In this document: piece after piece, positions 337 through 14,720 of the stretch
Layout: each line of letters opens with the position of its first letter
Numbering within the stretch: the stretch's first letter is position 1
Origin: Planctomycetota bacterium
GTDB lineage: Bacteria > Planctomycetota > JAMOSO01
Assembly: GCA_027063065.1 (NCBI GenBank)
Contig: JAMOSO010000071.1
Coordinates: 14,216 to 78,215 of the forward strand
Length of the DNA stretch: 64,000 bases
Reading direction: 5' to 3'
Made by a program: the position numbers and the translations under genes
The notes under the pieces: generated by a model
The model's database searches: none
What the model was told of the DNA's origin: nothing
The model's input: only the letters and a program-made list of their open reading frames with translations

Positions 337-2259
337 TTAATGTTCTTTTTGCACTTGTATAAAATTGTTAGAAATAATTTTTGTGGCTAATTTTCTAACA
401 CTCAATTCTTCATCAAATAAACTGGCGTCAATAATACTAGCATAGATGTTACTGTTAATTAAATGCGGGGGGTGTAATAGGGTGGCAATTCTGATTTCTT
501 TTTGGGGTAATGTTAATAGATGTTTAATAGGCAGTGGATGTTTTAGTTGCTGTGATAAATCAGCTAGTACCCATGCTTCTATTAATGCTAAATTATAGCT
601 GTGGGTGCTTTCGGATAAAATTTCATTTAAAGGTTTTAAATCATATTGTGCCATTGAAATTAAAGCGTTAGTAGCCCAGTTTAAACCATTACTAGCTTGT
701 TTGGCTAGATATATGATAGCTTGTTTTTCTGCTTTGATTGAAGAGGCATATTTTATAATCAGTTTTAATTTAGCATGGTATTCAGGAAATTGTGTAATTA
801 ACTCATATAGAGAATAGTTATGTTGATATAGTAATGATTTAGAGATAGCTTTTAATAATTCTATTTCCGAGCTTTCTTGTAATAGATTTAGCATTTCTAT
901 ACTTAATGTTTTATTTTTGATATGCGCACTGACTCTGCATGCTAAAATAGCAATATTTAAATATGGATGCTTAAGTTTACTTTTAACACTTATTGCTATT
1001 TCTTCTGGTAATGTATGATTTTGTCCCCACATTTCTAATCGACTTAAAACACTTTCATATATGCTATTTGGGTGTTCTTCTTCTAAGATGGAGCTAAAAT
1101 CATATAGGTTTTTTTTAGTCAAAATTGAAGATAAGCTTTGCACTGCTGTATACGAGGTGAGTTCGTCAGTTTTTAGAGCCTCCCTTATTTGTGGCCATGC
1201 CTTTTTAAAACCCGCTTGTCCTGCAATTTCAATAATGTGCAAAATCACATTTGTATCTTTTTCTTGTTGCCACCAGTTACAAAAATTATCTTCTGTTTCA
1301 GGTAATGCTAAAAGTCCAGCTAATTCATAACCAATTATTCTTATATTTGCGTTTTGGCTTTGCATAGAGTTATTAGATATATGTATTATTAATTCTTCTG
1401 GCATAGCGCCTAAACTTTGTATACAAGTTCGTTTTAACTCTGGGTGAATTTTTGTAGCCATTACATTAATAATTTTAAAAGCTACATTTTCTTGAGGGTA
1501 GTTAGCTAATGCTTCTACAGCAGATTTGCGTAATATATTTTGATTTGTTTCATTTTCTAAAATATTTAATAAAGTGGATATGGCATCTTTTAGTTGATGT
1601 TTACCAAAAATTTTGCATAGGTATATTTTGACCTCTATATCCGCTTCTGTCTGTAGTGCTTGTAATAATATTTGTAACGGTTTGGATGTAATAGGTAAGT
1701 AGCATATTTGTTCGGCAGATAATTTGCGTATAGTTACAGAATTATGTGTAAGACAATTTAATAATAAATCAGCTAAATTTTTGCGAGCACTTTTTTTAAA
1801 ATTTAATTTGCTTAAAGAAAGCAAAGTAGCTTCGATAACTTTTTCAGATGTTGATTTTAGTAATCGGCGAATATAGGCAATATCAAAACCTAATCCATAA
1901 TAACAAAGCAAGTTTATTACTGGTATGCATAATTCAGAATTAACATCTTCTAGTAAAGATAAAACGTATTTTTGTGCATTGTAACCATCGATTTTACGCA
2001 AAGCGTTAAAAGCTTCGAGGCTTAAATCTTTATCTTTATTTTTAGTATATTCAATTAACAGTTCAATACATGGTTTGGCATTGGTCAAAGATAATAACGG
2101 ACATATTTTTTTTGCCTTTATATAATTTAAATCTTTAGCAAATTTACAAAAATCTAAAAGTTCTTTTGGGTTTTCTTCTAGTTGTTCCCAAAGAATACGC
2201 GCTTCTAAAATAGTTGCTTTTTCAAGTTCAGTAAAAATAGTTTCATTATTTTTATTCAT
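337..2259 (-). CDS. HEAT-repeat protein inside the pel operon
   Basis: A protein of about 640 residues made almost entirely of alpha-helical HEAT-like repeats (for example LEAFNALRKIDGYNAQKYVL and later repeats spaced about 30-35 residues). It has no signal peptide and no membrane segment, so it is probably cytoplasmic. I chose the ATG at 2259 because it overlaps the pelE stop in an ATGA arrangement; an in-frame upstream ATG at 2280 would lie inside pelE. pelF follows after one base. The canonical Pseudomonas pel operon (pelABCDEFG) has no such gene between pelE and pelF. PelE here also carries HEAT-like repeats, so the protein may be a scaffold that joins the inner-membrane PelD/PelE complex to PelF. 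That role is inference; no catalytic motif is visible. Confidence 0.85.
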   Translation of the reverse strand: MNKNNETIFTELEKATILEARILWEQLEENPKELLDFCKFAKDLNYIKAKKICPLLSLTNAKPCIELLIEYTKNKDKDLSLEAFNALRKIDGYNAQKYVLSLLEDVNSELCIPVINLLCYYGLGFDIAYIRRLLKSTSEKVIEATLLSLSKLNFKKSARKNLADLLLNCLTHNSVTIRKLSAEQICYLPITSKPLQILLQALQTEADIEVKIYLCKIFGKHQLKDAISTLLNILENETNQNILRKSAVEALANYPQENVAFKIINVMATKIHPELKRTCIQSLGAMPEELIIHISNNSMQSQNANIRIIGYELAGLLALPETEDNFCNWWQQEKDTNVILHIIEIAGQAGFKKAWPQIREALKTDELTSYTAVQSLSSILTKKNLYDFSSILEEEHPNSIYESVLSRLEMWGQNHTLPEEIAISVKSKLKHPYLNIAILACRVSAHIKNKTLSIEMLNLLQESSEIELLKAISKSLLYQHNYSLYELITQFPEYHAKLKLIIKYASSIKAEKQAIIYLAKQASNGLNWATNALISMAQYDLKPLNEILSESTHSYNLALIEAWVLADLSQQLKHPLPIKHLLTLPQKEIRIATLLHPPHLINSNIYASIIDASLFDEELSVRKLATKIISNNFIQVQKEH

Positions 2260-3224
2260 GCGGATATATTCTCTAGCCAAAAATCAATATTATGTTTAAT
2301 TCTAAGCGGAATCGTGCCAAATGTCGCAGCTTGTTGGCAACATAATGCAGTTTCTGCGAACTTGCCACAGTAATAATTTGCCTCAGCGCACCATAGTAAT
2401 GCAGTTTGAGGATTATCTGATGTTTTGGCTAATGTAGTAAAACACGCCAGTGCTGATTTGTAATCATGTAAACCTAAATCAATGCGTCCAGCTAATTCAT
2501 AGACTTTAGAGTCCGCTTGCTTGGGGTTGATTTTATTAATATACATTTTAGCTTTTTTTAGATAGTTTTTTTCTCTTTCACCTTCGGCAATATTATAATA
2601 ACTAAAATCAAAATAAGATTGGGCAAGGTTAAAGTAATCTAATGCAGAGGCTGTCGTGCGTGTTGCTCTTAAATCACGTTTTTTTAAGCTATCCGTTAAT
2701 TTGCTTTCAATTTTAGAAAGTATGCTAGCAGCAAAAAAGCGTACTTCAACTGATTCTAAACTTAATGCTTTACGCAAGGTTGCAACAGATTCTGGGGTTT
2801 CTAACTGGGCTAAAGCTTCAATGGCCGTGCGTTTTTCTAATAATGGTTGGTCGGATTTGAGAATGCTAAATAAAGATAGTAAACGTTCTGGATCGGGAGT
2901 AAATGTTTTAGTCGTATTGTTGTATTCTAAATCTTTTGCTAAGTGTTCTTGATAGTCTTCAAAGGTTCCTGATTTATGCTGCCCAGATGTAGCTAAAGAA
3001 TAATAACTGGCACACAAGCCTCCAAATACGGGAACGCCCATAGCTAATGTTATTTCAAAACTTGGCAATCGCCTTTCATCACGTCCAAAATAAACCGTTA
3101 TTAACCCTAATACTGCACTCGTCAAATGCATTTTAGTAGCATCTATAAACTGGTGTTGTTGCAAAAACATTAAGCATAACCCTGTAGCAATTATATTAAA
3201 AATAATGATAGGTATAAAACGCAT
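2256..3224 (-). CDS. pelE: PelE-like inner membrane protein with HEAT/TPR region
   Basis: 322 residues. Two hydrophobic segments (about residues 3-20 and 33-78, the latter broken by a charged GRDERR patch) are followed by a soluble part with a HEAT-like stretch (KRTAIEALAQLETPESVATL region, about 130-180) and TPR-like helices to the C-terminus. This is the architecture of PelE: two transmembrane helices and a cytosolic TPR domain that, with PelD, PelF and PelG, forms the inner-membrane synthase complex. The start codon overlaps the pelD stop by one base. Assignment depends mainly on architecture and on the position between pelD and pelF, since PelE is poorly conserved. Confidence 0.75.
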   Translation of the reverse strand: MRFIPIIIFNIIATGLCLMFLQQHQFIDATKMHLTSAVLGLITVYFGRDERRLPSFEITLAMGVPVFGGLCASYYSLATSGQHKSGTFEDYQEHLAKDLEYNNTTKTFTPDPERLLSLFSILKSDQPLLEKRTAIEALAQLETPESVATLRKALSLESVEVRFFAASILSKIESKLTDSLKKRDLRATRTTASALDYFNLAQSYFDFSYYNIAEGEREKNYLKKAKMYINKINPKQADSKVYELAGRIDLGLHDYKSALACFTTLAKTSDNPQTALLWCAEANYYCGKFAETALCCQQAATFGTIPLRIKHNIDFWLENISA

Positions 3225-4564
3225 TATAGCTCTTTGTAAAAAGTTTTTTGAAACTTATTAAACTCTGGTAGATTATTTACTTCTAGTAAATTTATATTAT
3301 CTGCAAAGTGGATAGGTTTTTTATTGTTATTGTTTAATATCATTAATTTATAATAAGCTAAAGTATTTAATATTTTTTCTTTGACTACATTTGCTCCAGC
3401 AATATTTGTAGAAGGTAAATATAGTAAAAATGTTTGCTGAGGATAATTATATGTTAATAAATCACTACCTCGTGCTATTTTTAAAATAATGTGTGATATT
3501 AACATTTCTAAACGCCAATGTGCTTTGCGGTTTAATGAAAATGACTGTAACGATAAACTTAAGATGGTAGCAGGTTTGGCTTCTCTGGCTAATAATCTAA
3601 TGGATTTAGATACATAATCACAAAAAAAGTTTTCACCATTTAAACCTAATTCTTGTAAATCAAAATCGTGAGAGCCTTTAGCTTGCATTATTTCAATTCT
3701 GTCTAAACTCATTCCAACCCAGTGTAAAATAGTTTCAAATACATCTACACTTAAAGACGCCATATTTTTAAAAGGTATCATACCAACAGTAATACCCATA
3801 ATTAGTTTTTCTTTGCGGTTATAAACCACGCCAGCAAGTATAGCATCATTTGGAATGTTTGGGTTATGTTTGGTGGTACAGCTTAAGATGCTTTTTGTTT
3901 GCATACTTTTACGTAGTAAGGCTGGTATGTTTGTTTCTTCAATTAATTTATTGTTTTGTAGCCAATCTCCGTTGTGGTGTTCGTATATACTGATGTCTTC
4001 GGCGTGTAAGATTTCTGATAGAGAATCCTTTAGACAGGTAATAAGTTCTTCTTTATTTCTAACCGAATTAAGCCTTTTTATCGGTCCGTGCATTCTAAAT
4101 AAATTTCCTTCACGGCCGGCAATGTTTGATTCTAAAAAGCGATATTTTTCTTCCAGTTGCAAATAATTTTTACGATTTATTTCTAGCTCTTCTTTTGTTT
4201 TTTGTAAATTTGTTTTAAAAAAAGTTGTCTTACAATCTCGGCTATTAAGAGCCTCGCTACAATAATGGCCTAACATAATCATAGATACTGGTATAATCAT
4301 TTTATTAGTATGTAGGTATAGCATATCACTAACGTTGTTGTCTATTTGATAATACCCCCAAAGAGTTAGTCCGGCACAGATTAAACTTATTAATTGTCCG
4401 TAAGGCTCACCATATCTAAAAGAAATCAATAAGATAATAAGCCAATAAGGCGACAGTGGCATTTGAGTAAAAAACATATCTTCAGGCATAGTAAAGAATG
4501 CAACTAGCTGTAAGCTAGCTAACATAAATAATGCTTCTGAATACACTTGAAGTTTTTTAGGCAT
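3224..4564 (-). CDS. pelD: PelD-like c-di-GMP receptor (TM + GAF + degenerate GGDEF)
   Basis: 446 residues. The N-terminal 105 residues hold several hydrophobic helices, followed by a coiled coil (about 115-145), a GAF domain (about 165-290) and a degenerate GGDEF domain. The I-site motif R365-G-S-D368 is intact, while the catalytic loop that should read GGDEF is PQQTF (375-379), so diguanylate cyclase activity is not expected. This matches PelD of Pseudomonas, whose RxxD at 367-370 binds cyclic di-GMP and activates Pel synthesis post-translationally. It sits three bases after pelC and overlaps pelE by one base. Membrane topology and domain borders are my estimate; the motif reading is direct. 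Confidence 0.9.
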   Translation of the reverse strand: MPKKLQVYSEALFMLASLQLVAFFTMPEDMFFTQMPLSPYWLIILLISFRYGEPYGQLISLICAGLTLWGYYQIDNNVSDMLYLHTNKMIIPVSMIMLGHYCSEALNSRDCKTTFFKTNLQKTKEELEINRKNYLQLEEKYRFLESNIAGREGNLFRMHGPIKRLNSVRNKEELITCLKDSLSEILHAEDISIYEHHNGDWLQNNKLIEETNIPALLRKSMQTKSILSCTTKHNPNIPNDAILAGVVYNRKEKLIMGITVGMIPFKNMASLSVDVFETILHWVGMSLDRIEIMQAKGSHDFDLQELGLNGENFFCDYVSKSIRLLAREAKPATILSLSLQSFSLNRKAHWRLEMLISHIILKIARGSDLLTYNYPQQTFLLYLPSTNIAGANVVKEKILNTLAYYKLMILNNNNKKPIHFADNINLLEVNNLPEFNKFQKTFYKEL

Positions 4565-4567
4565 AGA

Positions 4568-5137
4568 TTATTTTTTATTTTTAAAATTTCTTTTTTTTAT
4601 TTGGTTATTTTTATTTGTTTTAGGTATTAAATTTTGAACAATCTTAGCGCATTGTTGCTGAGTTAAATGCCCAAGGCTATTAGAACCAAAAATATTGTTA
4701 TTAGATTTAGCACAATTTGCAGACCATATAATCTTATTTGTTGCCACATTTAACATATATACAGTCATACCTATAGCTGGCTTTTGGCTGACTCCTGTTT
4801 TATAGCGATATTCTGTAACAGTACCAGTAATAATAGTTTGTGATTTGATAATATTTGCCATTTTTTTGGCAGTTAAAATTTTTCCTGCAAATGGAGCTAA
4901 CAGTAATCTTACTTTTTCTGGACTGAGGATATTTAAATTGGTATTAATCATTAGTTCGCTAGCAAGTTGATCAGACACGATTAAGCCGGCGTTGGGATTA
5001 TTAGAATAATTTTCAAAAGGTACGACGGCAATTTGACCCAAATTGTCAAAAGTATTTTGCGTTAATTGTGAATATTTATTAGATGTACAACCAGTAAATA
5101 AACTAATTGCCAATATGTAGGTTAGTAATTTAAACAT
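4568..5137 (-). CDS. pelC: PelC-like outer-membrane lipoprotein
   Basis: 189 residues with a lipoprotein signal peptide ending in a lipobox LFTG-C17, so it should be acylated and sorted to the outer membrane. The mature part resembles the TolB N-terminal-like fold of PelC (GQIAVVPFENYSNNPNAGLI, the strand-turn motif shared with CsgG/LpoB-type lipoproteins). PelC forms a ring under the PelB porin and guides the cationic polymer to the pore. The length is close to that of Pseudomonas PelC (about 170), with an extra Lys/Asn-rich C-terminal tail. It lies between the beta-barrel gene and pelD, as expected for the operon. Confidence 0.88.
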   Translation of the reverse strand: MFKLLTYILAISLFTGCTSNKYSQLTQNTFDNLGQIAVVPFENYSNNPNAGLIVSDQLASELMINTNLNILSPEKVRLLLAPFAGKILTAKKMANIIKSQTIITGTVTEYRYKTGVSQKPAIGMTVYMLNVATNKIIWSANCAKSNNNIFGSNSLGHLTQQQCAKIVQNLIPKTNKNNQIKKRNFKNKK

Positions 5138-5148
5138 TTTAACTCCAT

Positions 5149-6297
5149 TTAAAAAATAAAATTTATTCCAAAATCAGTATAGCGGGTTTTGCCTGTTGCA
5201 ATGCCGTTAGATGACTGGGAATCTATACCAAAGCCAAGCCATAGTCTAATATTATCTGTTGGAATAACATATAGATTTGCTTGTAATTCATATAATTTAT
5301 TCCAGCTGATTTGTCGTGGCGAATCTTGTCCTGTTGTAGCATCTAGGTGTACCCCATAGTTTTCCGTTAAAAAAACATTTGCTGTCAACCCAACTTTTAA
5401 TTTTAGTAAATGTTGTTCTTGTGGGATACGTGTTTCTTGATATGCCGAGTTAAATCTTGCGCCATCTAAGCTGGTGTATATTTGCAAAAAACTATATTGG
5501 TAATCTTTTTCAAGATAGTTTCCTGTGCCTAAAAAACCAGTTTTCAATTGGTGAGAATAATTATTCCATAAATTATATCCAATTTTTCCATGCCAGTTGT
5601 AGTTACGTCCTTCGTGATGTTCTGGAGAAAACGTACTGTCTGTGGTGTAAATTTCGGTAATGCTTGCGCCACAAGATAAAATTAATTTATTGTTTATGTT
5701 TTTGTAGAGCTCTGTTAATAGTTTAAATCCGCGATTGTCTTCTTGTATGGCTATTGTATTGTCAATTTGAGGAGTCCATATTTGAGCCTCGATTGTAAAA
5801 TTTAGATTATTATGTTTGATAAAACCTAAACGAAGTCCAGGGCTATTTATGTTAGAAGTATCGCTGAGTGATGTTTCTATATATGTGCTATAAAGTTTAG
5901 TTTCTTTTTGTAAGCGTATATTTATTTCTTTATTTTGTTCTTTAATTATATTTTCATCCGCTTCTAGCTGATAAGTATTTAATTTGATTATGGTAGCCAG
6001 TTTAAAGTATGCGGAAATGGGTACAATTCCAGTAATTTTTTGTAATGTGATGGTTTCTGCTTGGTTATAAGAATGTCTTGAGGTGTAAAGCAATTCTGGG
6101 CGGTGGTTGCGTATAAGTTCTGTTTGTCTTAATGTTATATATTCTAATTCTGTATCGTAGACTTGCTTGTAGTTTTTTGCAACTTGTGTAGGTTTTATAT
6201 CTTGAGGAACTTTTATTAACAATTCATCATTTGCTAATAATATATTTGAGCCTATATTACAGATAAGCCATACAATAAAAATAGTTTTCAAATTCAT
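5149..6297 (-). CDS. pelB: PelB C-terminal-type outer-membrane beta-barrel, separate gene
   Basis: 382 residues beginning with a cleavable signal peptide (hydrophobic 5-21, cleavage near NILLANDE). The rest is rich in alternating beta strands with aromatic girdles and ends in FGINFIF, a terminal aromatic residue typical of outer-membrane barrels. In Pseudomonas this porin is the C-terminal part of the single 1193-residue PelB. Here the barrel is its own gene overlapping the upstream TPR gene by four bases (ATGA), so the export channel is assembled from two polypeptides. The presence of its own signal peptide argues against a sequencing frameshift. Exact barrel strand number cannot be read by eye. 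Confidence 0.78.
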   Translation of the reverse strand: MNLKTIFIVWLICNIGSNILLANDELLIKVPQDIKPTQVAKNYKQVYDTELEYITLRQTELIRNHRPELLYTSRHSYNQAETITLQKITGIVPISAYFKLATIIKLNTYQLEADENIIKEQNKEINIRLQKETKLYSTYIETSLSDTSNINSPGLRLGFIKHNNLNFTIEAQIWTPQIDNTIAIQEDNRGFKLLTELYKNINNKLILSCGASITEIYTTDSTFSPEHHEGRNYNWHGKIGYNLWNNYSHQLKTGFLGTGNYLEKDYQYSFLQIYTSLDGARFNSAYQETRIPQEQHLLKLKVGLTANVFLTENYGVHLDATTGQDSPRQISWNKLYELQANLYVIPTDNIRLWLGFGIDSQSSNGIATGKTRYTDFGINFIF

Positions 6298-8249
6298 TGT
6301 TTAGCCTTGTTAATATATGCAATGGCATTGGAATATGCCGTATAAGTATCTAACCAAGAAGTATTTTTGTTGTGCCATTTTCCTGCATCGCTATTGTAGG
6401 CTTTGGTTAATAGCTGGTTGCGTTTATTCATTTGTGCAAATTTTTGTGGCGGATTTTTGATAATAACCTTTGCCTTGATAGGTCTAGGCACAATACCGCC
6501 TATTTTAGCTACTAGCCTGTAATACTCGTTTTGTATGTTTTGTTTGCCCGGTTGTAAGTCAAGTAATTTACGATAGTTTAAAATAGCCATTGGAATATCA
6601 TTAGTTTTTTCATAAAAATAGGCTTTGAGAGCCAATATATTTATATTAGATTTAGAATTATCAAATTTTCGGATAATATGTTTAGCTAATTTTAGATCGT
6701 TTTTATCTAAAGACATTTGTAACATTTGTTTGTCTATGTTGCTAATTTTAGTTTGGTATGTTTGGTATTCTGTTTTAGCTAATCGGTAGTTGTTGTCATC
6801 AATAAATAAGCTAATTAAATATGTTTTTTCGGCGGCAGACAAACCAAAAGGCTTTAATTTTGTTAATGCTTTTATTGCCTTGTTTCTATTTACTTGTCTT
6901 TGTATGTTAGTATCGTGAGCATAGTTGCGCCAATAGCGCTCTAAATAAATATTTGCTAAATATCTGGTTGCTTGTTTGGAGTTACGTTTACTAGCTAAGC
7001 GCAATAATTTATTTTGTTTTTCGGTGTCAAGTAAACGTGCGTAAAAATTAGATATGTCTATTAAATTTTCGACGCTTAAATTATCCCAGCCAATGGTTTT
7101 TTTTATATTTTGCAAATCATCCATTGCCAGTTGTCGTTTTTTTTGTCTTAGGTGCAAGCCTATTATTTTTACATATGCTGTTTTTGTTTGCGGAAACCCT
7201 TTGTCAATAATTTGTTTAAGTATAAGTTTGGCACGTGGATATTTTTTGTCTTTTATTAACAAATCAGCAATATATAAAAACATTGCACCATCTTGTTTTA
7301 ATTCGGCTAATTTAGTTAAGTAAAATATATATTGTTTGTTATTGTTTATTTTTTTAGAAAACACGGTTCCCATCCAACAGATTTTTTCTTTATAACCAAA
7401 TTGTTTGGCAGTTTGGTTAATAGTATTTAAAGCTTTGGCGGTTTGATTTGACCACGAATATAAATAAGCCAAGTCTTCCCAGTCGTGTATTGTAGCTTGT
7501 TGATGTTGGCATAATTTTTGTGAACTTATTATGGCGTTTGGAATATCTCTAGCGCGTATATAAAAGGTGGTTAATAATTTATAGTCATCGCAGGCACATT
7601 TATTGTGCATTAGTAATTCTTTTGCGTATGGTAATGCTTGTTCTATTTTACCTTGCCAAAGTAAAGTCTCTATTAAGCTGGCAAGGTCATTGTGCTTATG
7701 TTGAGTTTTTACCATACCCTGTAAAGCTTCTATGATGCCAGTTACATTCATTGACCATTCTTGATATGTTTTAATTTGTTCCCAAATGGCATAGTCGCTT
7801 TTGTCGTGTTTTAGTTGCTCTTTTAAAATTTTAATCGCCTCATTTAAGTCGCCAATTTCAACTAATAATTTTAAAATGGTTACATAATTTTGTTGGCGGT
7901 TTTCATTTAAAATAGCTAAAGCTTTTTGATAATAAAATAGTTTTTGATAGAAATTTACTAAAAAATCTTTTGCCCAAATATCAGATGGTTTTTGTTGTCT
8001 ATATTTTGTAATTAAATTTATAATGGTTGCGTTTTGCTTATCCTTTAGAAGTAAAGGTACAATCATTTCTAGTGCGCGTTTATCTCCGGGGTTTGCATGC
8101 AATACGTCTTGCAAAGATATAATCGCGATATCCGAAGAACTTCTTTGAGCCAACATAATGGCTTGTTCACGTTGCGGAGGTATGCATAAAAATGCTAGAG
8201 TAATGACACCTAAAGCAAAAAACAAAATTTGATGGATTTTAAAACCCAA
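6294..8249 (-). CDS. pelB: PelB N-terminal-type TPR periplasmic scaffold, separate gene
   Basis: 651 residues. A single N-terminal hydrophobic helix (about 6-22) would anchor the protein in the inner membrane or serve as a signal sequence; the remainder is TPR-like helical repeats with repeated A..A..L.L.P patterns (for example ALKAYFYEKTNDIPMAILNY near 540). In PelB the TPR region lies in the periplasm and binds PelA, coupling deacetylation to export. The start overlaps the pelA stop by 11 bases and the stop overlaps the beta-barrel gene by four. The combined length of this and the next gene (about 1030) approximates one PelB. Confidence 0.8.
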   Translation of the reverse strand: MGFKIHQILFFALGVITLAFLCIPPQREQAIMLAQRSSSDIAIISLQDVLHANPGDKRALEMIVPLLLKDKQNATIINLITKYRQQKPSDIWAKDFLVNFYQKLFYYQKALAILNENRQQNYVTILKLLVEIGDLNEAIKILKEQLKHDKSDYAIWEQIKTYQEWSMNVTGIIEALQGMVKTQHKHNDLASLIETLLWQGKIEQALPYAKELLMHNKCACDDYKLLTTFYIRARDIPNAIISSQKLCQHQQATIHDWEDLAYLYSWSNQTAKALNTINQTAKQFGYKEKICWMGTVFSKKINNNKQYIFYLTKLAELKQDGAMFLYIADLLIKDKKYPRAKLILKQIIDKGFPQTKTAYVKIIGLHLRQKKRQLAMDDLQNIKKTIGWDNLSVENLIDISNFYARLLDTEKQNKLLRLASKRNSKQATRYLANIYLERYWRNYAHDTNIQRQVNRNKAIKALTKLKPFGLSAAEKTYLISLFIDDNNYRLAKTEYQTYQTKISNIDKQMLQMSLDKNDLKLAKHIIRKFDNSKSNINILALKAYFYEKTNDIPMAILNYRKLLDLQPGKQNIQNEYYRLVAKIGGIVPRPIKAKVIIKNPPQKFAQMNKRNQLLTKAYNSDAGKWHNKNTSWLDTYTAYSNAIAYINKAKQ

Positions 8250-10293
8250 TTTTCAACTCCACTATTTTGACTTTGTCCGCAGGTATTTTAAAACTATAAA
8301 TACCGTTTTTAAAATTTGTTTTGATTTGTTTATTATTTAAATAAACAGTAGGGGTATGTATGCTTCTAAATTCAAATAAGCCACTTTTGCAAAACAATTT
8401 GATTTTGGCTAAAAAATTATGTTTGGTCAATTGTGGGGCTAATAGATTGTGAGTAGATTTTTTTAAACTGAAAATGTTTTTTGGATTTGCACTTAGGTAA
8501 ATTTTAGTATTTTTTGCATTTATACTTACATATAAAGAATTGCAAAAATAGTCCCATCCCAAAACACCTTTTGATTTTTGCATATCAACGGCACGAGTTT
8601 CGTTATCAAATCTGATGGTTTTTAAATAACCATTAGTTTTAAATTGCCAAGCGGAATTATCATCTGAAAGTCTATAAATTTTTAGTGATGTAAAATCTAA
8701 AACCATTCGGCAATAATCAGCTACATCAATCCAATTGAGTTCTTGTTTGCTTAGCCAAGCATATATTTTTTTTAATGAGTTTAACCCCGCCTGATTTTCA
8801 CAAATATAAAAATGATAGTATAAATTTAGTGCAATCAGTCTAGGTGAGGCTGTGTTTTTGAAAGTATCTAAAATATGTACAAAGCCGCCTTTATCTTGAT
8901 GCCAGCCGTTAGTGTATAAATATTCATTGCCTGCTGGTGCGTATATTTGTAACTCTTTGCCTTTTGCTACTGTAAGTGGTGCAATAGTAGCACGACTGTT
9001 ATATATAGCATCATATCTTGAGTTACCGCCATTTAGATTTAAATAACCGTTTTTGCGTAGCAATGCTATTTGTGCTTCGGTTGGGTCACAGTCACCAGTC
9101 CATAAAAACACCTGAGCTTTTTTGTTTTTTGGAACAGTTAATTTTTCAACTAATTTAATAGCGCCAACAGTTTCAAGGTAATCACTATAAATATAGTGGG
9201 GATATTTTATGCCGACTTTATGTTTTGCCCAATTCATAGGGTGGCAGTATCCATGTGCTGTAGGTTGTACATGGGGAAGTTGCATAATATTTTTAAAGAC
9301 ATCTAGTTGATTGTGTACTAAGCCGTTTTTATCTATCCGACAAGCAACTAATCCGATAGTAATAGGATATGTATTAGTTTTTAATATTTCATCATAGCAG
9401 ACTTCGGGAGAAATTCTTTGACGCCCTGGCAAGTTAATGCTTTTGTTTGCCATACCATCGCCATCGATATGCGAAAATGCAACTCGACAACCTGTAATGG
9501 TAGTAACATCAGCTTTAGGTAAATTTTGTGTGTTGAATGCGGCTTCTAAAAATATAAAAGGGTTTAAATCCCAACTGATTTGCCATTGTGGCGCTTCAAA
9601 AACTCTGTAAGCAAAATTTGGCTCACTGATAAATCCTCCACGCTTGCCAACACCAATAGCTATAGCTTGTGAATCGGCAATATCTTTTAGATATGTAATC
9701 CTCCAAGCTTGCATACCAAATCCCGAAGGGCGAATGTCGTGATAAATCAAATCTTGTGGTGGTAGTTTGGTTTCGTAATCAAATAAGTTTTTTTGCTCTT
9801 TGAGGTTGTGGTATTGCACACGAATAGGATCTATTAAATCTCCGTATTTGCCATAAGATAAACCCATAGCATTTAAAACTTGCGTGTATAAATGTTCATC
9901 GACACTTTTGCCTTGCATGTTGGTTTCGGCTCCTAAGCTACCAATTAATACAACGCGTTGATTGTTGTTTAGTTGTTTTAATAACCATTTCAGATACATG
10001 GCAGGATGTTGCATTTTTTGGTCATTAAACCAAATTAAAATCCCACGATATTTGGATGTGTCAATCAGCTTGTCTTTGGTTATATCTAAATAATCCACCA
10101 TTAAACCAAGGCGGTTAAGGGGCATTTCTAACCGTCCGTGGATATTGCTTTTTATTACAGAAGTCTCATTAGAGTCAAATAATGCTAAAATCCGTCTCGG
10201 TTCTATTTTTGAAGTGCTTGCAAGTATGTTTGATTGATTGTAGCATAAAAAAATGCTTAAAAATACAATTATGATGCCCCACCTTTTATGCAT
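8239..10293 (-). CDS. pelA: PelA-like polysaccharide deacetylase lacking the hydrolase domain
   Basis: 684 residues with an N-terminal signal peptide (hydrophobic 7-24). After a Rossmann-like middle domain (about 30-260) comes the deacetylase domain: SHIDGDG at 274-280 supplies the metal-binding and catalytic aspartates and HGYCHP at 347-352 the histidines, as in CE18 PelA. A beta-rich C-terminal region follows. PelA partly de-N-acetylates Pel in the periplasm, making it cationic. Pseudomonas PelA is about 948 residues because it starts with a GH166 hydrolase domain; that domain is absent here and a related hydrolase is encoded divergently at 10322. It is the first gene of the pel operon; the start has AAGG upstream. 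Confidence 0.9.
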   Translation of the reverse strand: MHKRWGIIIVFLSIFLCYNQSNILASTSKIEPRRILALFDSNETSVIKSNIHGRLEMPLNRLGLMVDYLDITKDKLIDTSKYRGILIWFNDQKMQHPAMYLKWLLKQLNNNQRVVLIGSLGAETNMQGKSVDEHLYTQVLNAMGLSYGKYGDLIDPIRVQYHNLKEQKNLFDYETKLPPQDLIYHDIRPSGFGMQAWRITYLKDIADSQAIAIGVGKRGGFISEPNFAYRVFEAPQWQISWDLNPFIFLEAAFNTQNLPKADVTTITGCRVAFSHIDGDGMANKSINLPGRQRISPEVCYDEILKTNTYPITIGLVACRIDKNGLVHNQLDVFKNIMQLPHVQPTAHGYCHPMNWAKHKVGIKYPHYIYSDYLETVGAIKLVEKLTVPKNKKAQVFLWTGDCDPTEAQIALLRKNGYLNLNGGNSRYDAIYNSRATIAPLTVAKGKELQIYAPAGNEYLYTNGWHQDKGGFVHILDTFKNTASPRLIALNLYYHFYICENQAGLNSLKKIYAWLSKQELNWIDVADYCRMVLDFTSLKIYRLSDDNSAWQFKTNGYLKTIRFDNETRAVDMQKSKGVLGWDYFCNSLYVSINAKNTKIYLSANPKNIFSLKKSTHNLLAPQLTKHNFLAKIKLFCKSGLFEFRSIHTPTVYLNNKQIKTNFKNGIYSFKIPADKVKIVELKIGF

Positions 10294-10321
10294 TTAAGAT
10301 ACCTTTTTTAGGAAATAAACT

Positions 10322-11254
10322 ATGTTTAATTATACTGTTTTGCGCTTTATTCTCAAGTTTAAGAACTTTTGTTTAATTAATTTTATATTGTTTTTTATAT
10401 GTATTTCTCAATGTATTGCCAGGGTCGATATTCAGTCATATTCGTATATATTGCAGGCGGAACAAGAGGTCAGTTCTAAGCAAGACGCTATTAAAAAATT
10501 GCGTGCTTTAGATAGTGATTTAATAATTTTAGATGCCAAATTTAGTAATACACAGAAATGGCTACCAAGTGATTTAGATGCAATACGCAATGGCAAAGTA
10601 GCAAAAAAAGTAATTTGTTATCTTTCAATAGGTGAGGCAGAAAATTATCGTGATTATTGGCAAACTTCTTGGGATAAAAATCCTCCATCGTGGTTGCTTG
10701 CCGAAAATCCAAATTGGGCAGGTAATTTTAAAGTGCAATATTGGAACGCAAATTGGCAAAAAATAATTTTACAAGATGTTGATAGTATAATGCTTCAAGG
10801 CTTTGATGGTCTATTTTTAGATATAGTTGATGGTTTTGAGTTTTTTGAAGAGCAGGGCGATAAATATATAGATTATAAGATTAATAGTTTAACAAAACAT
10901 AGTTATCGTCAAGATATGGTAAACTGGATAGGTTTAATAGCCAAGCGAGCTAAAGTAATAAAACATGATGCTTATATTGTACCGCAAAATGGTATACAGT
11001 TATTGCAAGAACCAAATTATACACAATACATTACTGCTCAGGCGTTAGAAGATTTATATACACTAAATAATAAAAAACAAAGCATAAGTAGAATAGAATA
11101 TATTTTAAACTTTGCTAAGGATTGTTTAGAGATTCCAATTTTAACTACTGAGTATCCTAGCAAAGAGAATATTAAAAAATATGCGCAACAAAAATCCGAA
11201 TATTATGCAACAATATTATTATTGACCAATAGGGATTTAACTAATTATCAATAG
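10322..11254 (+). CDS. GH114/GH166-like secreted glycoside hydrolase (stand-alone PelA hydrolase domain)
   Basis: 310 residues with a hydrophobic N-terminal segment (about 15-33) that reads as a signal peptide. The body is a TIM-barrel of the TM1410/GH114 type: VICYLSIGEAENYR at 97-110 (E105) and GFDGLFLDIVDGFEF at 160-174 (D167, D170) are the family's conserved strand ends with acidic catalytic candidates. GH114 and GH166 enzymes cleave alpha-1,4-galactosaminidic bonds in polymers such as Pel. The gene is divergent from pelA across only 28 bases and overlaps trmB tail-to-tail by 14. I infer it supplies the Pel hydrolase function missing from PelA. AGGA precedes the start. Whether it is GH114 or GH166 proper needs a profile search. 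Confidence 0.82.
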   Translation: MFNYTVLRFILKFKNFCLINFILFFICISQCIARVDIQSYSYILQAEQEVSSKQDAIKKLRALDSDLIILDAKFSNTQKWLPSDLDAIRNGKVAKKVICYLSIGEAENYRDYWQTSWDKNPPSWLLAENPNWAGNFKVQYWNANWQKIILQDVDSIMLQGFDGLFLDIVDGFEFFEEQGDKYIDYKINSLTKHSYRQDMVNWIGLIAKRAKVIKHDAYIVPQNGIQLLQEPNYTQYITAQALEDLYTLNNKKQSISRIEYILNFAKDCLEIPILTTEYPSKENIKKYAQQKSEYYATILLLTNRDLTNYQ

Positions 11255-11891
11255 TATCTAAAGAAAAACAGACATAAAAAATTTGTCTGCCCATAGCTAT
11301 ATGGCGTTTTTCGTAGACGGTTTCAATTAAAACCTCTTCGTCTTGACTTGGATTGTTTTTTAAATCTCGTATAAGGCTATGTATGCGAATGCCTTTGGTT
11401 GTGTTTAATGTTTCTATTGTATATTCAAATAATTCAGGATTGTCGGTTTTAAAATGTAACAGAGAAGTATCTTTAAATATGCAACGGTAACATTCTAAAA
11501 ACCTTGGAGAAGTCAAACGCCTGCTGGCCTTTGCTGGGAACGGATCAGAAAACGGTATCCATGCGCAATCTAATTCATTAGGCATAAAATAGTTGTCTAA
11601 AAATTCGCAACGTATTCTTAAAAAAGCAACATTTGTTAAGTTTTCTTCTATGGCGGTTAAAGCGCCTCGCCAAATCCTTGCCCCTTTGATGTCGATACCT
11701 ATAAAGTTTCTATTTGGATATTTTTTAGCTAGTGCCAAAGTGTAATCACCATATCCACAGCCTATTTCAATTGTAATGGGATTGTTGTTTTTAAAGTAAC
11801 TTTGCCAGTTGCCTTTTATTTTGTCATCTGTTTGAAAGACATTGGGCATTTGGTCAATTTCATTAAATTTTTTTTGTTTATTTCTAGCCAT
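11241..11891 (-). CDS. trmB: tRNA (guanine-N7-)-methyltransferase TrmB
   Basis: 216 residues. The SAM-binding motif IEIGCGYGDYTLALA (41-55) followed by the acidic strand FIGIDIKGARIWRG (63-76) and the WIPFSDPFPA motif identify TrmB, which methylates N7 of G46 in the variable loop of many tRNAs using S-adenosylmethionine. The length is slightly short of E. coli TrmB (239). The substitution of Pro-Phe-Ser-Asp-Pro for the usual Pro-Asp-Pro stretch is a small family variation. The stop lies inside the 3' end of the convergent hydrolase gene. Confidence 0.93.
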   Translation of the reverse strand: MARNKQKKFNEIDQMPNVFQTDDKIKGNWQSYFKNNNPITIEIGCGYGDYTLALAKKYPNRNFIGIDIKGARIWRGALTAIEENLTNVAFLRIRCEFLDNYFMPNELDCAWIPFSDPFPAKASRRLTSPRFLECYRCIFKDTSLLHFKTDNPELFEYTIETLNTTKGIRIHSLIRDLKNNPSQDEEVLIETVYEKRHIAMGRQIFYVCFSLDTIDN

Positions 11892-13082: not shown

Positions 13083-14720
13083 CTATAAAAGATTTTTTAA
13101 TAATATTTCAAATTCTGTTGTCCAGTTTTTGTTATTTATGGTTTTTAAATGATTGTTTATTTTGTCTTTTAAATAGCTAGTGCCATTTTTAATAAACAAA
13201 TCGGCTTGTGATAAATATTGTTGTTTGGTAGTAGTTATGCAGTCTGTTAAGTTAAAGCTATGCAAAAAGGCACTTGAGGTACGTTTGACATGCGTGTCGC
13301 CCTGTAATGTTAGCACTGGCACACCCATAGCTAAAATTTCACAAGTGGTTGTAGTTCCATTGTATGGGTAAGTATCTAAACAAAACTCGCAGGCTATAAT
13401 GTTTTGACGGTGGCGCATTATATCTTTTTCGCCAGGCAATATAGTAATGCGGTTTTTATTAATATTTACGCTTAGGTCTTTTAATAATCTTTGTTTTGTA
13501 TCTTCTAACTTAAAGTTTCTGGAACTTATGATTAAATGAACTTTGGGATTGTTTTGTAAAATTTGATTCCAAAGAGCAATGAGTTTAGGGTTTAACTTAG
13601 CGATATTATTAAAAGAGCCAATAATATAACAATCTTCAGGTATATTTAATTGTTGTTTTAAATTAATTGTGTTTGGTGGCTTTTTAAAAGGAATAAATGG
13701 TAAAAAAATATGTTTTGGCATTCTGATTAAAATTTCACTATATAAATTTTGGGCATCTGGCAAATCTACTAATGTGTCACTTAATCTAAAATCAATTTCT
13801 TTAAGTCCAGTAGTATTTGGGTATCCCCAAGCAGTGATTATTTTAGGTGCTGGTTTTAATTTGCAAATTTCTAACCCATTATTTTGTGTATGTCCCGCAC
13901 ATTCAATTAATATATTTAGCTGATGATTGTAAATTGTTAAGGCAGCGTCTTTGGGTGACAGATTACTTATGTCGATAACTTTAAAATGTTTTTGAAACCA
14001 TATTGATAATTCATCATTGTATGTCTTTAAAGAAAATAAAGTTATGTCAAAATCTTTACTATGATTACTGATTATTTCTTTTAAAAATAATCCAACAGAA
14101 TGCTGTCTAAAATCAGGCGATAGATAGCCTATATGGATGTTTGTGTTATCAGATTTGTGTTGGTTAAAATTTTTAAAATAGTTTGAAGTTTGATTTAGAT
14201 CACCCCATAATTTATGTATGTTTGCTATGGTATTGGCTGGCAAATCTAAATAGTGTAAGTGTAACAACGTAAGATCTAAATCGTGATATTCCGCTTGAGA
14301 AAATGTAGTATTGCATAAGCCTTGAAAAACTATATCACTTAATTGCCATTTGTAAATTAAGGGTGCTATAGCTATCCAGTGTAGGTATGTTACAGCAGGC
14401 GTATGATGATTAGTTAGTAAGCGGTGGATATATTTTAAGGCAGATGGTAAATCTCCTAAATTAGCTTTTAATTTTATTAATTCCAATAAGCTTATTTCAA
14501 TATTGTGCGAAGTAGCTTTATTATTATGTACTATAAAGTATTCTAAAGATTTACAGGCCTCATTTAACAAACCTAAATCCAGTTGCATAATACCACAATA
14601 AAATGGTATTTCTGCGATAGGTGGTAAGCTTTGAAGCTTTTGCAACGCCATTTTTGTATGGCCATTTTGAAACAACTTTAATCCTTCTCGATAAATTGTT
14701 ATTAGCTCTTTTTTTTGCAT
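13083..14720 (-). CDS. TPR protein with GT41 (O-GlcNAc-transferase-like) domain
   Basis: 545 residues. Residues 1-190 are TPR-like helices; from about 194 the GT41 fold begins with NIHIGYLSPDFRQHSVG, where H207 matches the conserved histidine of O-GlcNAc transferases. Further family motifs are CAGHTQNNGLE, AWGYPNTTGL, the FNNIAKLNP loop and the C-terminal TTTTCEILAMGVPVLTLQGD / HVKRTSSAF nucleotide-sugar site. Bacterial homologues add sugars to Ser/Thr of proteins, including flagellins or adhesins, or work on surface glycans. The gene lies convergent with the zinc-ribbon gene and near flagellar genes at 15875-18136, so flagellin modification is a reasonable but untested guess. Confidence 0.88.
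   Translation of the reverse strand: MQKKELITIYREGLKLFQNGHTKMALQKLQSLPPIAEIPFYCGIMQLDLGLLNEACKSLEYFIVHNNKATSHNIEISLLELIKLKANLGDLPSALKYIHRLLTNHHTPAVTYLHWIAIAPLIYKWQLSDIVFQGLCNTTFSQAEYHDLDLTLLHLHYLDLPANTIANIHKLWGDLNQTSNYFKNFNQHKSDNTNIHIGYLSPDFRQHSVGLFLKEIISNHSKDFDITLFSLKTYNDELSIWFQKHFKVIDISNLSPKDAALTIYNHQLNILIECAGHTQNNGLEICKLKPAPKIITAWGYPNTTGLKEIDFRLSDTLVDLPDAQNLYSEILIRMPKHIFLPFIPFKKPPNTINLKQQLNIPEDCYIIGSFNNIAKLNPKLIALWNQILQNNPKVHLIISSRNFKLEDTKQRLLKDLSVNINKNRITILPGEKDIMRHRQNIIACEFCLDTYPYNGTTTTCEILAMGVPVLTLQGDTHVKRTSSAFLHSFNLTDCITTTKQQYLSQADLFIKNGTSYLKDKINNHLKTINNKNWTTEFEILLKNLL

Follow-up and report, generated by a model that had tools for sequence, protein, structure and literature searches.

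A candidate secreted GH191 hydrolase encoded divergently from a hydrolase-less pelA in a Planctomycetota pel locus

Which enzyme cuts Pel in a locus whose PelA has no hydrolase domain, and is that enzyme a detached piece of PelA? The question is raised by two neighboring genes in the stretch of DNA analyzed here (the window, 64,000 nucleotides, positions 14216–78215 of a 78-kb contig). An earlier note had read them as a PelA function split into two divergent genes, one for the deacetylase and one for a secreted hydrolase. Both open reading frames are present and divergent, with start codons 28 bp apart. In our preferred reading, to which we assign a probability of about 0.7, the divergent gene supplies the Pel-cutting enzyme of the locus, an endo-acting galactosaminidase of family GH191 that is secreted and stands in for the GH166 domain of P. 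aeruginosa PelA.

The pel locus and its PelA

The genes of the pel locus lie on the minus strand in the order pelA, TPR gene, putative barrel gene, pelC, pelD, pelE, HEAT-repeat gene, pelF, and pelG, the last two following the HEAT-repeat gene beyond the window edge. PelG (PF16933, 2.7e-124) and PelF (DUF3492 and GT4 domains) are secure, and pelF, pelG, pelC, and pelA together identify a pel biosynthetic locus. Its features in the window are as follows.

337–2280, minus strand: HEAT-repeat protein of ~650 aa between pelE and pelF, with HEAT matches, kept in other pel loci
2256–3224, minus strand: pelE, by comparison with other pel loci
3224–4564, minus strand: pelD, resembling proteins at the pelD position in other loci, with a weak GGDEF-like match
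4568–5137, minus strand: pelC lipoprotein, matching the solved PelC 9h80 (E = 1.1e-9)
5149–6297, minus strand: putative PelB-like outer-membrane barrel gene, by position and a relative in locus L044
6294–8249, minus strand: PelB-like TPR protein as its own gene, by TPR Pfam matches and the L044 relative
8239–10293, minus strand: pelA, 684 aa, by its open reading frame, the 9cgy match, conserved residues, and the AF2 model
8674–9501, minus strand: PelA deacetylase domain, about aa 265–540, by conserved columns in 12 relatives and the 9cgy match
Within the deacetylase domain, minus strand: motifs SHIDGDG (aa 274–280) and HGYCHP (aa 347–352)
10322–11254, plus strand: divergent hydrolase gene of the GH191 (TM1410) type, 310 aa, by profiles, structures, tree, and fold

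The barrel gene gave no match in a Pfam search, and phmmer found nothing useful for PelD among solved structures. PelB is apparently split into the TPR gene and the barrel gene (5149–8249, minus strand). The L044 relative has the same split, with proteins of 1110 and 419 aa, and pelB fission is known from aquatic thermophiles (PMC7112194). A HEAT-repeat gene of matching size and place is found in pel loci of Bdellovibrionota, Auribacterota, Myxococcota, and others (profile-profile probability of 98.6% across loci) and was found at pel in none of the Pseudomonadota loci examined. Its product is possibly an unnamed pel component. The 3′ end of the hydrolase gene overlaps the convergent trmB (11241–11891) by 14 bp.

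PelA: Pfam and NCBIfam searches with this protein returned no domains. Residues 27–600 align to chain residues 251–818 of PelA from P. thermotolerans (9cgy; E = 2.4e-46), whose GH166 domain occupies residues 37–292 in native numbering (PMC12022489). As the match starts only at chain residue 251, PelA lacks the N-terminal GH166 domain of the full-length protein. The AF2 model, built from a 12-row alignment (mean pLDDT 78), agrees, and its sole strong structural match is 9cgy (E = 3.5e-40). A hydrolase hidden elsewhere in PelA is ruled out by the PDB match and the model. The protein consists of a signal peptide, a mixed alpha/beta region, a CE21-type deacetylase, and a beta-rich C-terminus. Twelve relatives share residues D277, D279, H347, H351, E457, and H494, and nearly all of them have H275. 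The catalytic and metal residues of a CE21 deacetylase are thus in place, and the alignment is to the non-hydrolase part of PelA. Both the missing hydrolase domain and the deacetylase motifs had been pointed out in the earlier note and are confirmed here. Judged from its sequence, PelA is a secreted deacetylase lacking GH166.

Family and active site of the divergent hydrolase

The hydrolase matches Pfam Glyco_hydro_114 (5.8e-17) and TIGR01370 MJ1477/TM1410 (3.4e-47; 161 bits, under the curated cut-off of 181). The Pfam GH114 model covers all the families considered here and matched 16/16 GH166-type sequences tested. Among solved structures, TmGH191 (TM1410) gave 5e-29, Env-GH191 3e-13, Ega3 (6ojb) 5e-5, and PelA (5tcb) 0.3. 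A GH191 profile made from the window protein and six relatives scored TM1410 with 240 bits, Env-GH191 (9ep5) with 167, and PelA with 24. With a GH166 profile of PelA-type hydrolases, PelA reached 199 bits and TM1410 90.

The AF2 model of the hydrolase (pLDDT 81) is a modified TIM barrel that superposes on GH191 structures. Foldseek returned 9eux (E = 4.1e-20, TMt 0.79), 9ep5 (E = 3.3e-18, TMt 0.81), and 5tcb (E = 1.2e-11). In a 63-row tree made by a quick method, whose single inner branches need caution, GH166 and GH191 form separate clades, each with 100% SH-aLRT, and the window hydrolase groups inside GH191 and outside GH166. GH166 identity is strongly disfavored by this tree and by the weak match to 5tcb (E = 0.3), and a GH114 of the fungal Ega3 type by the difference between 6ojb (5e-5) and TM1410 (5e-29). 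From the initial description as "GH114/GH166-like", the Pfam GH114 match and the shared clan stand, whereas tree and profiles give the family as GH191, not GH166. The active-site residues, with roles assigned after PMC12054363, are predicted at the following positions.

10820–10822, plus strand: catalytic nucleophile Asp167, equivalent to TmGH191 Asp156, invariant in the alignment
11048–11050, plus strand: acid/base Glu243, equivalent to TmGH191 Glu225, invariant in the alignment

The spacing of the catalytic Asp to Glu was checked in TM1410. By its sequence, the hydrolase is a GH191 member with the catalytic Asp/Glu pair intact. By inspection, the N-terminus looks like a Sec signal peptide and lacks a clear lipobox. 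A secreted hydrolase next to pelA, as first proposed, is supported by this signal and by the Glyco_hydro_114 and TM1410 matches, and we regard the protein as a candidate secreted GH191 alpha-galactosaminidase. A PHROGs search with it returned nothing. In the genome, the sole match to PF03537 (GH114) and to the GH166 profile was the window hydrolase. No GH166 gene was found elsewhere by profile, an absence that is not absolute because the assembly is ~90% complete.

Hydrolases at other pel loci

We surveyed ~80 pelA loci in total. Hydrolase-less PelA is common in the Gram-negatives among them, and GH166 is fused or the next gene in most loci. A contig scan with PelA (3-row alignment), annotated with the GH166 and GH191 profiles, covered 56 loci from many Gram-negative phyla. 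GH166 was fused to PelA in 9 of these and formed its own gene adjoining pelA on the same strand in 22, upstream of pelA in 19 and downstream in 3 (KSB1/Caldithrix L049, L050, and L055). GH191 was present in 11, and the remaining loci had neither family or were cut by contig ends. Over the whole survey, GH191 was located in 17 pel or pelA loci. Related hydrolases are found repeatedly alongside pel in other phyla. Only one locus, L071 of Desulfovibrio, has both families. Its two hydrolase genes lie at 6481–7449 (minus strand) and 8324–9289 (plus strand), one GH191 and one separate GH166. GH191 at pel loci is recurrent and nearly mutually exclusive with GH166.

Eight Bdellovibrionota loci (L131–L136, L139, and L150) carry GH191 immediately after pelG on the same strand, and this pair is on the same contigs as pelA. 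A genome-wide search of these genomes with the GH166 profile returned GH191 genes only. The same divergent pair as in the window was found in two Halobacteriovorax genomes, with starts ~40 bp apart. In Halobacteriovorax (L070 and L084), the pelA/GH191 pair stands apart from the operon pelC-pelG, which was found elsewhere in the genome with neither pelA nor GH191 in the DNA examined there.

Among 392 sampled genomes of Planctomycetota, the phylum of the window, 29 have PelA. GH191 lies in the pel locus of the window and of five others, in convergent orientation with pelA or pelG: G027, G237 (convergent to pelG), G041, G062, and G260 (convergent to pelA). The loci with a fused or adjacent GH166 are those of G023, G063, G028, G083, G150, G236, and G292, and none of these Planctomycetota loci has both families. 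G062, near-equal for both (101 vs 94), falls with GH191 in the tree; the fragment G260 (67 vs 59) and G237 were left out of the tree. In G023 (locus L206, 5830–11220, plus strand), a GH166 domain and PelA share one 1797-aa open frame, of which the N-terminal ~840 aa may be partly a non-coding open frame in GC-rich DNA.

Within GH191, pel linkage requires six changes on the tree, which may combine gains and losses and of which at least five are forced by starred branches. Hence, a single ancient linkage inherited unchanged is excluded. Chance adjacency is rejected as the linkage recurs across lineages. Among 99 relatives, a hit to the window hydrolase was obtained in 10/13 PelA genomes vs 18/99 overall; this measures the clan and not GH191 alone because some hits (e.g., G023, G028, and G083) are GH166-type. 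GH191 is also present in relatives without detected PelA (G047, G068, G039, G075, and G048). The most similar GH191 and PelA were found in G093 (also L044), yet not on the same contig. No hydrolase lies near some of the hydrolase-less pelA genes, e.g., in L054, L062, and L068; hence, a hydrolase may be dispensable.

Proposed role and comparison with known systems

The GH191 gene is best read as a non-homologous substitute for the PelA hydrolase. In the periplasm, PelA would deacetylate the growing polymer; together with PelB and PelC it would also handle export. The GH191 enzyme would cut partly deacetylated Pel, i.e., polymer that PelA has already processed, and this would set the chain length, release short soluble Pel, and limit adherent biomass. 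We infer that the substrate is the organism's own Pel, and we likewise infer the site of action.

A hydrolase domain split off from the original PelA, like the PelA_H/PelA_DA split in Bacillus, would have the same fold, clan, and position as the known split hydrolases, and real GH166 splits adjoin pelA in the 22 loci described above. Such an origin is very improbable here, as the window protein falls within GH191 with full support, outside GH166, and scores 400 bits with the GH191 profile, among whose sequences it is, against 86 with GH166. The idea of a PelA split into two genes is therefore abandoned: the partner belongs to a clade apart from GH166 (100% SH-aLRT; reciprocal profiles). The presence of GH191 in genomes without pel would suit a nutritional or predatory enzyme with no relation to Pel, which digests the galactosamine polymers of other organisms and adjoins pel by coincidence. 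This is improbable given the linkage in several lineages, with at least five forced tree changes, and the near mutual exclusion of GH191 and GH166. Alginate lyase AlgL is a precedent for an enzyme that clears the periplasm. The hydrolase might similarly remove stranded polymer and protect the cell, with a minor role in biofilm shape; its Sec signal fits a periplasmic or membrane-anchored site, and the Halobacteriovorax and Desulfovibrio relatives have lipoprotein-type signals. We consider this role unlikely, as a clear lipobox is missing from the window enzyme and known Pel hydrolases alter both the mass of the biofilm and the release of Pel (PMC7112168, PMC9894940).

The divergent layout could also constitute a regulatory switch, in which expression of the hydrolase is uncoupled from, or inverse to, that of the pel operon, so that Pel release or dispersal is timed. 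Two features between and within the divergent genes are relevant.

10294–10321, no strand: 28-bp gap between the divergent start codons, with a Shine-Dalgarno-like site facing each gene
10329–10356, minus strand: candidate pelA promoter TTGAGA-N16-TATAAT, 11/12 match to the consensus

The candidate promoter sits within the start of the hydrolase coding sequence, and the chance of a match of at least 11 of 12 is ~0.0035 per 100 bp. Because of this position, taken from a sequence match, transcription of pelA and of the hydrolase may interfere, one hindering the other. The close starts here and in Halobacteriovorax (28 and ~40 bp) fit a switch, as does the divergent hydrolase of Bacillus (PMC7112168). 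In the eight Bdellovibrionota loci, however, GH191 on the same strand after pelG is probably co-transcribed with it; separate control is thus not general, and we hold the switch as tentative. Read from the gene layout, the hydrolase would be transcribed apart from the pel operon, and control of Pel release independent of export is possible. More speculative, and rather doubtful, is a general scheme in which Pel systems have interchangeable hydrolase designs, GH191 is a dedicated Pel-operon enzyme recruited several times for GH166, and, in the divergent form, overlapping control regions set export and deacetylation against cleavage as a build/release switch for the matrix.

Under the preferred reading of GH191 as a replacement hydrolase, the same swap in other bacteria suggests a real, previously unnoticed part of Pel systems. 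As deacetylase-only PelA is common in the Gram-negatives surveyed, having the hydrolase on the PelA chain appears to be one design among several. The pel link gives the family a likely physiological role in Pel production, predicts Pel activity for named GH191 enzymes of Bdellovibrionota and Planctomycetota, and makes GH191 at pel loci new candidate biofilm-dispersing enzymes. Why bacteria keep four galactosaminidase families is a question posed in the GH191 paper (PMC12054363).

TmGH191 (TM1410) and Env-GH191 (9ep5) share family, fold, and catalytic Asp/Glu with the window hydrolase; the accessible portion of their description gives no pel-locus context, whereas GH191 is here tied to pel loci (PMC12054363). 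Env-GH191, the only GH191 enzyme for which Pel cleavage is known, favors GalN-rich stretches, and T. maritima GH191 neither acted on nor bound GAG oligomers (PMC12054363). Hence, substrates may differ within the family. In the open-access articles searched, we found no report of GH191 in pel loci or of free-standing GH166 in Gram-negative pel loci. SIR_1591 of Streptococcus intermedius, a pel-cluster hydrolase that disrupts Pel aggregates, is likewise a non-PelA hydrolase encoded at pel but has another type of TIM barrel and a DUF4832 domain, and its deletion gave no phenotype (PMC12345266).

In P. aeruginosa and P. thermotolerans, PelA (5tcb, 9cgy) has GH166 and CE21 on one chain (PMC12022489). 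The window PelA keeps the deacetylase, middle, and beta-rich domains and the catalytic residues of Pseudomonas PelA but not the N-terminal GH166, and the hydrolase is of another family in another gene. The P. aeruginosa PelA hydrolase yields short secreted Pel and lowers adherent biomass, which is higher when PelA lacks hydrolase activity (PMC9894940). Gram-positives are known to combine deacetylase-only PelA with a hydrolase encoded divergently (PMC7112168, PMC13254593). B. cereus ATCC 10987, published in 2020, has pelDEA(DA)FG with a divergent pelA_H (BCE_5582), and deletion of this hydrolase gene increased biofilm and adherent biomass (PMC7112168). It shares with the window a deacetylase-only PelA and a separate secreted hydrolase encoded divergently beside the pel operon; its hydrolase, however, is described as resembling that of PelA (GH166), and it is Gram-positive, whereas the window locus is Gram-negative with pelB and pelC (PMC7112168). 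Bacillus thus already provided a precedent for a PelA that lacks its hydrolase and adjoins a divergent hydrolase gene; the window locus differs in having GH191 as the partner.
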